64,000 bases of DNA, taken from positions 5,894,001-5,958,000 of the forward strand of contig NZ_CP029553.1 of the NCBI RefSeq assembly GCF_003173755.1. The letters are read 5' to 3'. This document shows, piece by piece, positions 55,728 to 63,019 of the stretch. The notes under the pieces are model-generated. The model saw nothing but the letters and a program-made list of their open reading frames with translations, had not been told where the DNA came from and did no database searches. The translations under genes and the position numbers were made by a program. Each line of letters opens with the position of its first letter. The stretch's first letter is position 1. This DNA is from Methylobacterium terrae. Its GTDB lineage: Bacteria > Pseudomonadota > Alphaproteobacteria > Rhizobiales > Beijerinckiaceae.

Positions 55728-56864
55728 TCACCCCCGCGGAAACACCCGCGCCGCCCCGACCGCGAGCGCCACCCGGTCGCCCGGCTCGTAGACCTCCGTC
55801 ACCTTCACCTCGACCGGGGCCTCGGCGCCGTCGAGGAGGATCTCCGCCACGGTGCCCCGCCCGGTGCGGCGCCATTCGCGCACGGTGCCGGGCAGCGTGC
55901 CGGGTCCCTGCCCGACCGTGAGGTCCCAGGGCCGCAGGCAGAGATCGACGGCTCCTTGCGGCCAGCCGGCCTCCGCCGCGATCACCGGGCGGCCGGCGAC
56001 GCGGACCTCTCGGCCGACGACCTCGGCCGGCAGCCGCGCGGTCTCGCCGACGAACGACATCACGAAGCGCGAGGCCGGGTGGTCCTGGACCTCGTGAGGT
56101 GCGCCGACCTGCTCGATGCGGCCCTTGTTGAGGATCGCGATCCGGTCGGCGAGCTCCAGCGCCTCGTCCTGGTCGTGGGTGACGAAGATCGTGGTCTGGC
56201 CGGTCTCGCGGTGGATCTCGCGCAGCCAGCGGCGCAGGTCCTTGCGGACCTGGGCGTCCAGCGCCCCGAACGGCTCGTCGAGGAGCAGCACCGAGGGCTC
56301 GACCGCGAGCGCGCGGGCGAGCGCGACCCGCTGGCGCTGGCCGCCGGAGAGCTGGCCCGGATAGCGCCTGGCGAGGTCGGGCAGCTGCACCAGCTCGAGC
56401 AGGCGCTCGACCCGGCGGCGGATCTCGTCCTCCTTCGGGCGGTGGGCCCGGCGGCGCGAGCGCAGCCCGTAGGCGATGTTCTCGAACACCGTCAGGTGCC
56501 GGAACAGGGCGTAGTGCTGGAACACGAAGCCGACGCCGCGGCTCTGGACCGGGATGTCGGTGGTGTCCTGCGAGCCGAAGAACACCCGGCCGCCGTCGGG
56601 GATCTCGAGGCCGGCGATGACGCGAAGCAGCGTCGTCTTACCGGAGCCCGAGGGGCCGAGCAGGGCCAGGAGCTCGCCCGGCTCGATCGCCAGGCTGACG
56701 CCCTCGAGCGCCGCCGGGCCGTGGCCGCCGTAGCTCTTCACGATGCCGTCGACCCGCACCGCCGTGCCGGCGTGGCGCAGGCGCTCGGAGGACGCGGCCT
56801 CGACCGGACGGACTTGCGCGTCGCGGCGCAGGGACAGGGCGGTGGGAGCGAATCCGGCCGTCAT
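55728..56864 (-). CDS. cysA: sulfate/thiosulfate ABC transporter ATPase
   Basis: A 378-residue ATPase that powers sulfate import by CysTW. Walker A is GPSGSGKTT, the signature is LSGGQRQR, Walker B is [15 protein letters not shown], and the H-loop is [10 protein letters not shown] regulatory C-terminal domain with LRPWDLTVG is present, as in CysA. It begins one base after the cysW stop (TGAGATG). An in-frame start 36 bases upstream is possible but would lie inside cysW. It is the last gene of the sulfate operon, convergent with the GntR gene. Confidence 0.95.
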
Positions 56865-56865
56865 C

Positions 56866-57750
56866 TCAATGGGCTCCGCGTCCGGCCAGCGCATCGGCAT
56901 GGCGCCATTCGAGGAAAGATTTACCCGCCAGGGTGACGAGCGCGAGGAGCGCCAACAGCGAGGCGATCCCGAACGCCGCCACGTAATTGTACTCGTTGTA
57001 CAAGATCTCGACGTGGAGCGGCATCGTATTGGTCAACCCCCGGATCCGGCCCGACACGACCGACACGGCGCCGAACTCCCCCATCGCCCGGGCGTTGCAG
57101 AGCAGCACGCCGTAGAGGAGCGCCCAGCGCACGTTGGGCAGCGTCACGGTGCGGAAGACCCGCCACGGGCTCGCGCCCAGGGTCAACGCGGCCTCCTCGT
57201 CGGTGGTGCCCTGGTCCTGCATCAGCGGGATCAGCTCGCGCGCCACGAACGGGAAGGTGACGAACACGGTGGCGAGCACGATCCCCGGCACCGCGAAGAT
57301 GATCTCGATCCCGTGCCGGTTGAGGAACGGGCCGAACAGCCCCTGCGCCCCGAAGATCAGCACGTAGATCAGGCCCGCCACCACCGGCGAGACCGAGAAC
57401 GGCAGGTCGATGAGGGTGATGAGCAGGTTACGGCCGCGGAACTCGAACTTGGCGATGGCCCAGGAGGCGCACAGCCCGAACACGACGTTGAGCGGCACCG
57501 CGATCACCGCGACGAGGAGCGTCAGGCGGATCGCCGCCAGCGCGTCGGGCTCGGCGAAGGTGGCGATGTAGGCGCCCAGGCCCTTGCTCAGCGCCTCGAC
57601 GAACACCACCGCGAGCGGCAGCAGCAGGAACAACCCCAGGAAGGCCACCGCCAGGAGGGTGAGCGCGATGCGGACCGGGCGCGGCTCGGTCAGCGCCGCG
57701 TGCGGGCCGCGGGCGGCGGGGCGGATGGAGGGAACGGTCGTGTCAGACAT
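56866..57750 (-). CDS. cysW: sulfate ABC transporter permease CysW
   Basis: A 294-residue inner-membrane permease with six membrane spans and the EAA loop ([22 protein letters not shown]) that contacts CysA. Sequence features such as [26 protein letters not shown] are characteristic of CysW. It overlaps the end of cysT by 8 bases and is followed at once by cysA, so the three are translated as a block. Confidence 0.95.
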
Positions 57751-58612
57751 GCCCGAACCTGCGGCGGCTGAAATCCTGGACCAGGTTGATGGCCAGCAGC
57801 GCGGCGAACGACATCAGCAGCATCACGGCGGCGATGGCGGTGGCGCCGGCATAGTTGAACTCCTCGAGCTTGATCACGATCAGCAGGGGCGCGATCTCCG
57901 AGACGTAGGGCAGGTTGCCGGCGACGAAGATCACCGAGCCGTACTCGCCGACCGCGCGGGCGAAGGCGAGGGCGAAGCCCGTGAGCATCGCCGGGATCAG
58001 GGGCGGCAGGATCACCGTGACGACGGCCCGGAAGCGCGAGGCGCCGAGGATCGCGGCGGCCTCCTCGCTCGACTTGTCGATCTCGGCCACCAGCGGCTGC
58101 ACCGTGCGGACGCAGAACGGCAGGCCGACGAAGACCAGCGCCACCAGGATGCCGAGCGGCGTGTAGGCGACCTTGATGCCCATCGCCATCAGGGGCTCGC
58201 CGAGCCAGCCGTTCGGCGCGTAGAGGCTGGCGAGCGCGATGCCGGCCACCGCCGTCGGCAGGGCGAAGGGGAGATCCACCAGCGCGTCGATGATCCGCCG
58301 GCCGGGGAAGCGGTAGCGGGTCAGCACCCAGGCGATGAGGAGCCCGAACACCGCGTCGATCGCGGCGGCGGCCAGCGACAGGCCGAACGAGGTCTTGAGC
58401 GCCGCGAGGTTGCGGGCATCCGTCACGAGCGCCCACAGGCCGGCGGGGCCGACGCTGGCCGCGCGCAGGAGCAGCACCGCCAGCGGCAGGAGGACGATCA
58501 GGGTCAGGTAGGTGAGCGTGATCCCGAAGGTCAGGCGGAAGCCCGGGAGCGCGCTCGGCCGCCGGAAGCGGGGGGCGGCCCGCCCCGCGGGCAGGGCCGC
58601 GGCGTCGCTCAT
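57743..58612 (-). CDS. cysT: sulfate ABC transporter permease CysT
   Basis: A 289-residue permease with six membrane spans, paired with CysW. The EAA loop is [21 protein letters not shown], and [22 protein letters not shown] is the CysT-type segment. Its ATG overlaps the TGA of the upstream fused gene (ATGA at 58609-58612), so it is coupled to the periplasmic receptor encoded there. The N-terminal 25 residues are basic and Ala-rich and precede the first span. Confidence 0.95.
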
Positions 58613-61074
58613 TGACGGGACTTCAGGATGGCGTCGAAGACGCCGCCGTCGTCGAAGTGGGTTTTTTGGGCCTTGGCCCAGCCGCCGAAGGTGTCGTCGA
58701 TCGTGACGAGCTTCAGCTTCGGGAAGCGACCGAGGTCCTCCTTGGCCGCCGCCGACTCGTCGCGCGGACGATAGAAGTTCTTGGCGATGATGGCTTGCGC
58801 CTCAGGGGTATAGAGGAACTGCAGGTAGGCCTCGGCTTGGCGGCGGGTGCCCTTCTGGTCGACGTTGGCGTCGATCAGCGCCACCGGCGGCTCGGCCAGG
58901 ATCGAGAGCGAGGGCACGATGATGTCGAACTTGCCCTTGCCGAATTCCTCGTCGGCGAGGAACGCCTCGTTCTCCCAGGCGACCAGCACGTCGCCGAGGC
59001 CCCGCTGCACGAAGGTGGTGGTGGCGCCGCGCGCGCCCGTGTCGAGCACCGGCACGTTCTTGAACAGGGCGGTGACGAAGTCCTTCGCCTTGGCGTCGTC
59101 GTTGTTGTTCTTCGACAGCGCGTAGGCGTAGGCCGCGAGGTAGTTCCAGCGCGCGCCACCCGAGGTCTTCGGGTTCGGGGTGATGACCTGGATCCCCGGC
59201 TTCACCAGGTCGTCCCAGTCCTTGATCGCCTTCGGGTTGCCCTTCCGGACCAGGAACACGATGGTCGAGGTGTAGGGCGTCGAGTTGTTCGGCAGGCGCT
59301 TCTGCCAGTCGGCCGGCAGCTTCTTCGAGCGCGCCGCGATGGCGTCGATGTCGCTGGCGAGCGCCAGCGTCACCACGTCGGCCGGCAGCCCGTCGATGAC
59401 CGAGCGGGCCTGGGCGCCGGAGCCGCCATGGGAGGCGCGCACCGTCACGGTCTCGCCGGTCTTGGCCTTCCACTCCTTGGCGAAGGCCGCGTCGATCGCC
59501 CGGTACAGCTCCCGGGTCGGGTCGTAGGAGACGTTCAGGAGGGCCTGCGCCCGGGCCGGGGCCGGGGCCCCGGCGAGCGCGAGCAGCGAGGCCCCGGCGA
59601 CGAGCGCGAGCGACGAGCCCCGGAACAGCCGCCGCAACGAGCCCAGGAGGCCGCCGCCGGCGGGAGCCACCTCGGCCTTGGCGATGTCGGCCTTGGCGAT
59701 GTCGGCCTTGGTGACCTCGGCCTTGGCGACCTCGGCCCTCGTCTCGACCTTGGCACCGCCCTGCGGAGAGGCCTGCGGCGCCTGGACCAGACCCAGGGCC
59801 GCGGTGTCGGTGGTCGCCCGGTCGATCAGGATCAGGCTGCCGGTGTCGCGGTTCTGGCGGTAGGCATCGACCGCGACCTTGCGGTCGAGGCTGAGCGTCA
59901 CGTCGCCGATGTCGTTGGCGCTCAAAGCGTCGGCCGGCACGCCCTGCCCGGTCTCGGTGTCGATGCGCGCGCGCACGGCCTCGACCACGGCGTTCGCCGT
60001 CACCGTCCCGACCTTGGCGAGGTAGGTCGCGCCCGGCGTCAGCTCGGCCTCGTTGGCCCAGAACAGCCGAACCTCGAGCCGGTCGCTGACGATCGGCGGT
60101 TGCGCCGCCGCCGTGATCACGCTGCCGCGCGAGGCGTCGACCTCGTCGGCGAGAACCAAGGTCACCGACTGGCCGGCGATGGCGCGTTCCAGGTCGCCGT
60201 CATAGGTGTGGATCCGCGCCACCGTGGACGGGGTGCCGGCGGGCGCCACCACCACGGCGTCGCCGACCGCGACCGCGCCCGAGGCGATCAGGCCGGAGAA
60301 GCCACGGAAGTCGGAATTCGGCCGGTTGACCCACTGCACCGCCATGCGGAACGGAGCGGCCTCCTCCTCGACGTGGGCGGGCACCTCCTCGAGGTACTGC
60401 AGCAGCGGTGCACCGGTATACCAGGGCGCGGCCGTGCCCGGCAGCACGACGTTGTCGCCGTTCGCCGCCGAGAGCGGGATGCCGGTGACGTCGGCGAAGC
60501 GCAGATCCTTGGCGAAGGCCTGGAACTCGGCCAGAATCGCCTCGAACCGACTTTCGGACCAGCCGATCAGGTCCATCTTGTTGACCGCCAGCACGACGCG
60601 GCGGATGCCGAGCATCGAGACCAGGAGCGCGTGGCGCCGGGTCTGCGGGCTCAAGCCCTTGCGGGCATCGACCAGCAGCACCGCGACCTCGGCGGTCGAG
60701 GCGCCGGTCGCCATGTTGCGGGTGTACTGGACGTGGCCCGGAGTGTCGGCGACGATGAAGGAGCGCCGCTCGGTCGAGAAGAACCGGTAGGCGACGTCGA
60801 TGGTGATGCCCTGCTCGCGCTCGGCCTGCAGCCCGTCGACGAGGAGCGCGAGATCGAGTTCCCCTCCCCGCGTGCCGTGGCGGCGCGAGTCGCGCTCGAG
60901 CGCGCTGACCTGGTCGTCGAAGATCTGCTTGGTGTCGTGAAGCAAGCGCCCGATCAGGGTCGACTTGCCGTCGTCGACCGAGCCGCAGGTGATGAACCGC
61001 AGCACTTCCTTCCGCTGATGGGCGGCGAGAAAGGCCTCGTAGCCGAAGGCGCGGGTGGATTGGTGCACGGTCAT
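58609..61074 (-). CDS. cysN: CysN fused to a sulfate-binding protein
   Basis: A single 821-codon frame joins two proteins that are normally separate. Residues 1 to about 435 are CysN, the GTPase subunit of ATP sulfurylase: [35 protein letters not shown] and [11 protein letters not shown] are intact. Residues 448-467 are four 15-bp repeat units ([10 protein letters not shown]). Residues about 480-511 form a signal-peptide-like segment ([20 protein letters not shown], then APARAQ). From about 512 comes a complete sulfate-binding protein ([43 protein letters not shown] split near residue 560). In-frame GTG469 and TTG480 could start a free receptor of 353 or 342 residues, the usual size. Either a true fusion or a read-through of two genes that lost their stop. 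Confidence 0.88.
59674..59733. repeat. 15-bp tandem repeat, 4 units, in the CysN/receptor linker
   Basis: Read on the minus strand the units are GAGGTCGCCAAGGCC, GAGGTCACCAAGGCC and two copies of GACATCGCCAAGGCC, encoding [20 protein letters not shown]. Each unit carries AAGGCC, so the last one places AAGG five bases before the in-frame GTG469, where it could act as a weak ribosome-binding site. Confidence 0.9.
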
Positions 61075-62009
61075 CAGAAGTAGCCTTCCTGCTTCTTGCG
61101 CTCCATGGCGCCGGCGCCGTCCTTGTCGATCACCCGGCCCTGCCGCTCGGAGGTGCGGGCGGCGAGCGTCTCGCCGATGATCTCCGGCAGGGTCGCGGCG
61201 TCGCTCTCCACCGCCCCGGTCAGCGGGTAGCAGCCCAGCGTCCGGAAGCGCACCAGGCGCATCTCCGGCGTCTCGCCGGGCTGGAGCGGCAGGCGCTCGT
61301 CGTCCACCATGATCAGCTGCCCGTCGCGTTGCACCACCGGGCGCTCGGCCGCGTAGTAGAGCGGCACGATCGGGATGTTCTCCTGCTCGATGTAGAGCCA
61401 GATATCGAGCTCGGTCCAGTTCGACAGCGGGAACACCCGCAACGACTCACCGCGCTGCTTCTTCATGTTGTAGAGGTGCCAGGGCTCGGCGCGCTGGCGC
61501 TTGGGGTCCCAGCGGTGCTGCGCGGTGCGCAAGGAGACGATGCGCTCCTTGGCCCGCGAGGCCTCCTCGTCGCGCCGCGCCCCGCCGAAGGCCGCGTCGA
61601 ACTTGTGCTTGTCGAGGGCCTGGCGCAGGGCCTGGGTCTTCATCACGTCGGTATGGACCTCGGAGCCGTGGCTCACCGGCCCGATGCCGCGGGCGAGCCC
61701 GTCCGGGTTGGTGTGCACGAGGAGGTCGAGGCCGAGTTCCTTCGCGCGCCGATCGCGGAACGCGATCATCTCGCGGAACTTCCAGGTCGTGTCGACGTGG
61801 AGCAGGGGGAACGGCAGCCGGCCCGGCGCGAAGGCCTTGAGGGCCAGGTGCAGCAGGACCGAGGAATCCTTGCCGATCGAGTACAGCATCACCGGGTTCT
61901 CGGTCTCGGCGACCGTCTCCCGCATGATGTGGATGCTCTCGGCCTCCAGGCGCTGGAGGTGGGTCAGGCGGTCGAGGCCGTCGGTCCGGGTCTTGAGGGC
62001 GGCGCTCAT
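61074..62009 (-). CDS. cysD: sulfate adenylyltransferase small subunit
   Basis: A 311-residue PP-loop enzyme that forms adenosine 5'-phosphosulfate from sulfate and ATP, working with CysN. The PP-loop is [17 protein letters not shown] near residue 45; other family segments are [16 protein letters not shown], the arginine pair in [16 protein letters not shown], and [15 protein letters not shown]. Its stop shares one base with the cysN start (TGATG), and its ATG overlaps the cysH stop (ATGA), so cysH-cysD-cysN are translated in tight series. Confidence 0.96.
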
Positions 62010-62857
62010 GCGGCCAGCTCCGGGTTGCTCTTGGTCGAGGATGATTCGGGCGAATGTCTAGTGCCGGACTGTGCCGGCTCGAAGGCGGCGGGCTCCTGTC
62101 CGGGCCTGATCTCCTGACTGGAGGGGATCTTCTGGCCGGGCGCTCCGGCGACGTGGAGGCCGCATTCCTGCTTGCCCGCCTGCTCCCACCACCAGCGGCC
62201 GGCCCGCTCGGGCTCGCCCACCTTCACGGCGCGGGTGCAGGGCGCGCAGCCAATCGACGGGAAGCCGCGATCGTGCAGCACGTTGTAGGGCACGAAGTTC
62301 TGATGGATCAGCTCCGCCAGCGCCTCGCGGGTCCAGTCGGCGATCGGGTTGAGCTTGATCAGGCCGCGGGCGTGATCGGCCTCGGCGAGCGGCGTCTCGG
62401 CGCGGTTGGCCGACTGCCCGGCGCGCAAGCCCGTGAGCCAGCCGGCGGCGCCGGCGAGCGCGCGGCCGAGCGGCTCGACCTTGCGGAAGCCGCAGCAGGC
62501 CTGGCGCGCCGCCACCGAGTGGCGAAAGCCGTTGATGCCGGATTCGGCGACGAAGCGCTCCTCGGCCTCGCGCTCCGGCGCGTAGGCGCGGATGCGGAAG
62601 CCGTAGGCGGCTTCCGTCTCGGCCCAGGTGTCGTAGGTCTCGGGGAAGAGCCGGCCGGTATCGAGGGTCACGATCTCGGCCCGCGACTTCGCCATGCGGA
62701 GCGCGTGGGTGAGGGCCTGGTCCTCGAGGCCGAAGCTCGTGGTGAAGACCAGGCGGCCGTCCACCGTCGCGTCGATGAGCGCGAGGCGCTCCGGCAGGGC
62801 GAGGGGACGCAGGCGCGAGGCCAGCTCCTGCGCCGCGCGGTCGAGGGGAAGGGTCAT
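62006..62857 (-). CDS. cysH: assimilatory adenylylsulfate (APS) reductase
   Basis: A 283-residue reductase that converts APS to sulfite. The 4Fe-4S ligands of the APS-type enzyme are present (ACCGFRK and GCAPCTRA), and the C-terminal catalytic cysteine is in KQECGLHV. Because it uses APS directly, no CysC kinase is needed, and none is found. A stretch of about 40 residues after ECGLHV ([17 protein letters not shown] and Ser-rich end) is longer than usual. ATG 62857 is chosen; the in-frame TTG 62920 coincides with a TTGACA promoter hexamer and is unlikely to be a start. It is the first gene of the sulfate operon. Confidence 0.93.
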
Positions 62858-62896
62858 GGAGAGCCCGGGATTGGCTGCTTGTGTGACCGGGTAACT

Positions 62897-62912
62897 GTTC
62901 GCTATACCGAAC
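62897..62912. promoter_or_regulatory. palindromic operator in the cysH promoter
   Basis: GTTCGCTATACCGAAC is a 16-bp palindrome with two mismatched central positions (GTTCG-S-TATA-S-CGAAC). On the minus strand a perfect TTGACA lies at 62915-62920 directly upstream, so the palindrome falls in the spacer between -35 and -10 of the cys operon, about 40 bases before ATG 62857. The same GTTC-N8-GAAC frame recurs at 63612-63627. Confidence 0.65.
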
Positions 62913-63019
62913 ACTGTCAAGGCATGGCTGGGATGCGATCCCGCTGTTTTTCGCAGCGGCAGGTCCGACCTCGCCGGCTATTCGAGGCTTGGCGAACGCC
63001 TTGGTCGAAAAACCGTTCC

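Follow-up and report, generated by a model that had tools for sequence, protein, structure and literature searches.

The subject of this analysis is a gene of Methylobacterium terrae in which cysN, coding for the GTPase subunit of ATP sulfurylase, is joined in frame to sbp, coding for a sulfate-binding protein, i.e., the receptor of the sulfate transporter CysTWA. It lies in a window of 64,000 nucleotides (contig NZ_CP029553.1, positions 5,894,001 to 5,958,000), which is the whole stretch of DNA that was analyzed. The fusion frame comprises 821 codons on the minus strand, from an ATG at 61074 to a TGA at 58611-58609, and encodes a protein of 821 amino acids.

An earlier note, made from the letters of this DNA, had described one uninterrupted frame with a complete CysN, an internal segment resembling a signal peptide and a complete Sbp, and each of these parts was recovered. 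Residues 13-430 align to the solved CysN structure 1zun_B with an E-value of 8.7e-138, and residues 512-818 to the sulfate-binding protein 1sbp_A with an E-value of 9.4e-135. Both halves also exceed their NCBIfam cut-offs: TIGR02034 (CysN) scores 588.5 bits against a cut-off of 336.1 and is matched over its complete length (profile 1-406), and TIGR00971 (Sbp) scores 480.8 bits against 155.5. When the mature Sbp chain was submitted, 1-307 of the 310 residues given as query aligned with 1sbp_A, and 5um2_A aligned as well. The CysN half carries the P-loop, DxxG, and NKxD motifs, which we take to be its GTPase motifs. No APS kinase domain was found in the fusion with Pfam, and the profile NF004035 reaches 634.7, which is under its cut-off of 715. 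The hydrophobic, signal-like stretch is present between the two halves. In a whole-genome search of the source genome no second CysN or Sbp was found, the other seven of eight matches being stretches of 28-33% identity within the GTPase part.

The gene order is cysH-cysD-[cysN::sbp]-cysT-cysW-cysA. The profile matches of the neighboring genes confirm that the fusion stands at the joint between the genes for sulfate activation and those for sulfate transport, as had been proposed (Table 1). The same surroundings were found in other carriers, as CysN, Sbp, CysT, CysW, and CysA matches are present in all 13 named fusion loci, and CysH and CysD matches in 12 of them; the sequence of one of the 13, L068, begins 44 bases before the fusion gene.

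Table 1. Genes of the locus and parts of the fused gene, in window positions.
Feature	Position	Strand	Basis
cysH, (P)APS reductase	62006..62920	-	NF002537 over cut-off
cysD; stop shares 1 base with the cysN start	61074..62009	-	TIGR02039 over cut-off
CysN GTPase fold of ATP sulfurylase, residues 1-430	59785..61074	-	1zun_B alignment, TIGR02034
Variable linker, residues 431-473	59656..59784	-	Alignment of 20 fusions
15-bp tandem repeat, (A-E/D-V/I-A/T-K)n, residues 447-469	59668..59736	-	TRF 59669-59737, period 15, 4.6 copies
Amphipathic basic stretch, putative signal n-region, residues 474-486	59617..59655	-	Match to the tail at the C-terminus of stand-alone CysN (Methylobacterium type)
Hydrophobic core of the internal signal, residues 487-503	59566..59616	-	Best 15-residue hydropathy 2.16
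Signal c-region APAPARA-Q; predicted signal peptidase I cut between residues 509/510	59548..59565	-	Strict site motif
Mature sulfate-binding protein, residues 510-821 and stop	58609..59547	-	1sbp_A, 5um2_A; only Sbp match in the genome
cysT permease; ATG overlaps the fusion TGA (ATGA)	57743..58612	-	TIGR02139 over cut-off
cysW permease	56866..57750	-	TIGR02140 over cut-off
cysA ATPase	55728..56900	-	TIGR00968 over cut-off

Occurrence and history of the fusion

Whether the CysN-Sbp architecture occurs in related genomes had been raised in the earlier note, and it does recur: an uninterrupted full-length fusion was identified in 20 of 111 Methylobacterium genomes, the source genome included, in 2 of 48 genomes of a second genus (G441 and G313), and in 15 divergent database proteins. 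Since the frame is stop-free in 20 of the 111 Methylobacterium genomes, the fusion is attributable neither to chance nor to assembly error, and the same open frame in 19 further genomes of the genus rules out a frameshift artefact. Thirteen named carriers, among them M. aquaticum, M. tarhaniae, M. variabile, M. platani, M. indicum, and M. crusticola, were fetched from the best 80 of 445 matches. In 397 genomes of the same family, the matches listed include at least 10 with the fusion, two of which (G441 and G313) lie outside Methylobacterium; in 397 genomes of the order, the carriers among the matches listed belong to Methylobacterium only. The second genus is regarded as Microvirga-like, because one member, G461, has a CysN that is identical to a protein listed under Microvirga lotononidis in the database.

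In a protein database search, in which 8000 candidates were scored, 24 full-length fusions of 789-806 amino acids were found among the 120 matches listed. Nine of them (P0002-P0010) are 81-93% identical to the source fusion, and the other 15 (P0011-P0025) 59-68%. P0016 shares 93% identity with the G441 fusion and is therefore not counted as an extra lineage. In a second search, starting from P0024, these 24 full-length fusions appeared again among the matches listed, together with two partial ones. The partial fusions P0085 and P0123 (537 and 528 amino acids, one half cut short) were left out of the counts. In all 22 fusion genomes the fused Sbp is the sole Sbp, with one weak match of 66 residues found in addition in G064.

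The source names of P0002-P0025, which are shortened and in some cases missing, give CysN or sulfate adenylyltransferase only and hide the receptor in the annotation. As they cover the sulfurylase half alone, fusion genomes can look as if they had no receptor. No report of a CysN-Sbp fusion was found in the full-text literature, the coverage of which leaves out most subscription papers, and the available parts of PMC9260416 and PMC6256036 contain nothing on it.

The two halves had been described as joined by a repeat linker. A repeat is indeed present in the source gene, where its 15-bp units produce an expansion of the linker by 16 residues, but this expansion is local to the source genome and absent from the other 19 Methylobacterium fusions, which rules it out as a functional joint. 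The linker as a whole is variable as well. It is 76-99 amino acids long across the 20 Methylobacterium fusions, with a mean pairwise identity of 0.55 (residues 431-478). All of its 15 distinct gap intervals are in frame, as would be expected if Sbp depends on the frame of CysN. The ratio of nonsynonymous to synonymous substitution rates (dN/dS) is 0.21 for CysN and 0.13 for Sbp; it is 0.56 for the linker and 0.36 for the signal, both values coming from 25-31 codons. Because it is below 1 in the latter two as well, linker and signal behave as translated sequences.

The Methylobacterium fusions group together as a single clade in the tree of CysN (support 97/87), sister to the sampled stand-alone CysN of Methylobacterium type (99/98), and the other fusions are scattered through the same larger clade. 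A single origin of the fusion was rejected, as constraining all fusions to one clade gave p-values of 1.3e-06 (Sbp) and 1.4e-71 (CysN) in the approximately unbiased test. Together with at least six changes between the fused and the unfused state on each tree, this indicates that the fusion came or went repeatedly. The sample behind these trees is biased to fusions, its 15 database rows having been picked for being fusions; of the 65 stand-alone CysN of Methylobacterium type, only every third (22) was included, along with 8 of the listed CysN proteins that carry DUF2061, a predicted membrane domain. In the Sbp tree, the lineage of the fused Methylobacterium Sbp is distinct from that of the 10 stand-alone Sbp included from this genus. 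A remnant of sbp behind stand-alone cysN had been suspected from alignments that continue beyond the cysN stop. This was ruled out, since no Sbp, CysT, CysW, or CysA match with an E-value up to 1e-3 was found in the fetched flanks of any of 62 stand-alone cysN loci; as a positive control, CysN and CysD were found in all 62 and CysH in 61.

Translation of the receptor half

With a confidence slightly above even, we read the gene as encoding a polyprotein, which would be made as a single chain, enter Sec export, and be cut before Sbp, so that CysN keeps a hydrophobic tail. CysN, linker, internal Sec signal, and Sbp would be translated as one chain of 821 residues, a step for which the support is good in the majority of the Methylobacterium group. 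The internal signal would then insert into the membrane, with CysN staying in the cytoplasm and Sbp being exported. A cut by signal peptidase I before Q510 would free the periplasmic receptor, as the conserved cleavage site and the ordinary strength of the signal suggest. The products would have masses of about 54 kDa (residues 1-509) and 34 kDa (residues 510-821). CysN, paired with CysD, would retain the old signal as its hydrophobic C-terminal tail and may thereby be held, if only temporarily, close to CysTWA on the cytoplasmic face of the membrane. The fusion would also set a 1:1 yield of the receptor and the activating enzyme.

The first of these steps was approached through the start codons ATG, GTG, and TTG. 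The relevant stretch covers the codons 28-60 positions ahead of the Sbp motif NVSYDP; a start within it would give a complete signal of the usual length. In 14 of the 20 Methylobacterium fusions this stretch contains none of the three codons, and in 11 the whole region between the ILID motif, with which CysN ends, and the codon 28 positions ahead of NVSYDP is free of them. Three loci (L009, L011, and L047) have no such codon at all in the stretch up to Sbp. The 14 fusions lacking a start at 28-60 codons thus appear to produce Sbp solely within the CysN chain.

Several observations weigh against this single-chain reading. The remaining six Methylobacterium fusions do have a candidate start at 28-60 codons, and the source gene (L001) is one of them, its candidates being GTG (residue 469) and TTG (residue 480). 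In two of the six, the estimated energies of the ribosome site (L043, -7.9; L048, -6.5) match that of the cysN start (-6.5). L038, L039, and L046, which belong to the 14, carry a possible start at 69-72 codons, further upstream and still within the end of CysN, and CTG and rarer starts lie outside the codons searched. In addition, the linker contains hardly any stop codons in its other frames either in this DNA, which makes stop-free reading weak evidence; the absence of stop codons was consequently set aside as proof of read-through.

These candidate starts lead to the strongest of the competing explanations, internal initiation, in which Sbp would be made mainly from its own start within the frame and the loss of the cysN stop would be incidental. 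Beside the six Methylobacterium fusions, it can draw on a methionine before the hydrophobic core in 5 of the 15 divergent database fusions (P0014, P0016, P0017, P0020, and P0021, read by eye) and on the second genus. The fusions of G441 and G313 (L140 and L149) retain an internal ATG behind AGGAG and AAGGAGG, respectively, with ribosome-site energies of -7.4 and -11.7 vs. -7.0 and -10.8 at their own cysN starts. An independent start of Sbp is likely in both, and the two appear to be intermediates, in which the stop is lost and the second start retained, i.e., halfway from two genes to one. For Methylobacterium, the lack of a canonical start in 14 and 11 of the 20 fusions over the two stretches searched speaks against internal initiation, as does the in-frame character of every change in linker length. 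The candidate starts of the six sit at differing places, bar one that is common to L001 and L040. Internal initiation, for which the start codons of the source gene taken by themselves leave room, is considered unlikely overall.

The internal signal and its predicted cleavage

The earlier note had proposed that the hydrophobic segment acts as an uncleaved signal anchor, with one chain spanning the membrane, CysN inside and the receptor outside. All 37 fusions (22 loci and 15 database proteins) do have a hydrophobic segment that is flanked by basic residues toward CysN, and the evidence for a single chain counts equally for an anchor and for a polyprotein. Two features of the segment point the other way.

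The first one is the cleavage site. A strict site of the signal peptidase I type was defined as A, S, or G at position -1, A or V at -3, and Q or D at +1, within eight residues of NVSYDP. Judged by this motif only, it is present in 37 of 37 fusions, vs. 3.5 expected when the order of the final 20 residues is randomized. Since 20 of the 37 rows form one clade and P0016 is a close relative of the G441 fusion, the rows are not independent, which takes some force from this count. A looser cleavage-site score was also reached by all 37 fusions, but by about 25 of 37 shuffles as well; it was dropped as evidence and the strict form kept. In a table of 46 rows, position -3 is occupied by A in 27, V in 17, L in 1, and E in 1, the single E stemming from a neighboring site picked in L049, and position -2 takes 12 different residues. 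The site in this table was chosen by Q or D at +1 and A, S, or G at -1, and the tally at -1 is therefore no test.

The second feature is the strength of the core. The best 15-residue hydropathy has a mean of 1.97 in the 37 fusions vs. 2.23 in 22 stand-alone Sbp (p 0.001). Outside Methylobacterium the means are 1.94 (17 fused) and 2.43 (12 stand-alone; p 0.0003), whereas within the genus 2.00 (20 fused) and 2.01 (10 stand-alone) do not differ (p 0.58). As this difference is missing in Methylobacterium and the fused rows are not independent, the statement that the core is weaker in fusions was reduced to its being no stronger. An anchor should have a stronger core than the signal of stand-alone Sbp, and nowhere is this the case, which disfavors it. 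Both features make cleavage the better reading, and the uncleaved anchor appears rather improbable, a little more so than internal initiation. Of the topology proposed in the note, CysN at the inner face with the receptor outside is still plausible, but it would not be brought about by an uncleaved spanning chain. That CysN persists at the membrane after the cut is itself something we infer, and the polyprotein reading is weaker at this point.

A mixed use, in which the long chain would be a minor side product beside a separately initiated Sbp, suits the second-genus fusions well and the 14 Methylobacterium fusions lacking an internal start in the usable interval poorly, and is given only a small chance. 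It is very improbable that the Sbp half stays in the cytoplasm, whether functional there or not, or that the fusion is a decaying by-product: a SulP-family transporter in 14 of 16 genomes checked (the source genome included, and 10 of the 12 fusion genomes among them) might make CysTWA dispensable, but Sbp is under strong purifying selection (dN/dS 0.13), signal and cleavage site are conserved, cysT, cysW, and cysA accompany the fusion in all 13 named loci, and the fusion genomes G049 and G313 gave no SulP match. For the polyprotein reading, the SulP-family transporter of the source genome means that export of Sbp need not be essential for sulfate uptake, which again counts against it. The end of this transporter gene lies at 1-177 of the window (genome 5893188-5894177) and offers a possible second route for sulfate or another anion.

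Relation to known systems and C-terminal ends of CysN

The conserved gene combines a cytoplasmic enzyme and a predicted periplasmic receptor of one pathway in a single chain across an export signal. It resembles CysNC in that CysN is extended by a C-terminal partner from the same pathway. CysC is cytoplasmic, however, whereas the partner in the fusion is predicted to be periplasmic and stands behind an export signal, with no APS kinase domain. The nearest mechanism known to us is that of the FbcH-type cytochrome b/c1 polyprotein of Bradyrhizobium, a single chain with an internal signal that is cut by signal peptidase to give two mature proteins. Its N-terminal half is an integral membrane protein, in contrast to the soluble cytoplasmic enzyme of the fusion. 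An FbcH-type fusion was sought in the source genome as a precedent and not found, cytochrome b and c1 being encoded in separate frames there. If confirmed, the gene would encode a bacterial polyprotein that begins with a soluble cytoplasmic enzyme, and a physical coupling of sulfate activation to sulfate import would become testable.

Most Methylobacterium have separate cysN and sbp genes, which encode the same enzymes. They differ from the fusion in the lack of sbp and cysTWA matches around cysN and in the other lineage of their Sbp described above. The C-terminal tail of their CysN corresponds to the signal n-region of the fusion. Of 65 stand-alone Methylobacterium-type CysN (P0026-P0091 without P0085), 61 end in a basic amphipathic motif, e.g., GGLLAGLKRLFGG, a motif formulated after inspection of the tails. 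The tail resembles LLxxLKRLFGG; in an alignment it coincides with the first part of the fusion signals and stops close to the beginning of their hydrophobic core. The stand-alone relatives of the fusion P0024 terminate in a comparable sequence, LRKLGFG. The tail is possibly a membrane-binding helix.

In genomes of Microvirga type, CysN is fused to DUF2061 in the same cysH-cysD-cysN cluster. As in the fusion, a C-terminal membrane segment is placed on CysN and the cluster lies upstream of sbp-cysT-cysW, which follow 3.4-4.1 kb downstream in L185, L186, and L191, with cysA seen in L185 and L186. The difference is that DUF2061 is a small predicted membrane domain without a receptor and that Sbp is encoded by a separate gene. 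A DUF2061 match was obtained in 2 of the 16 genomes examined; the 12 fusion genomes in this set, out of 22 known, gave none. In the literature searched, 4 papers mention DUF2061, and no paper mentions it together with CysN.

With DUF2061 and the amphipathic tails on relatives, membrane-seeking ends recur on CysN in this order, and such ends may dock CysN at the membrane. A more general proposal, which is put forward tentatively and judged less probable than the polyprotein itself, is that the ATP sulfurylase of this order might be docked at the membrane and receive sulfate at the exit of the transporter, CysN being brought there by interchangeable C-terminal devices, i.e., the remnant of the receptor signal, DUF2061, or the amphipathic tail; in the fusion clade, receptor and enzyme would then be one precursor that is split at the membrane.

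Two further database proteins, P0158 and P0159, for which DUF2061 is not among the listed Pfam domains, are CysN with hydrophobic C-terminal extensions.

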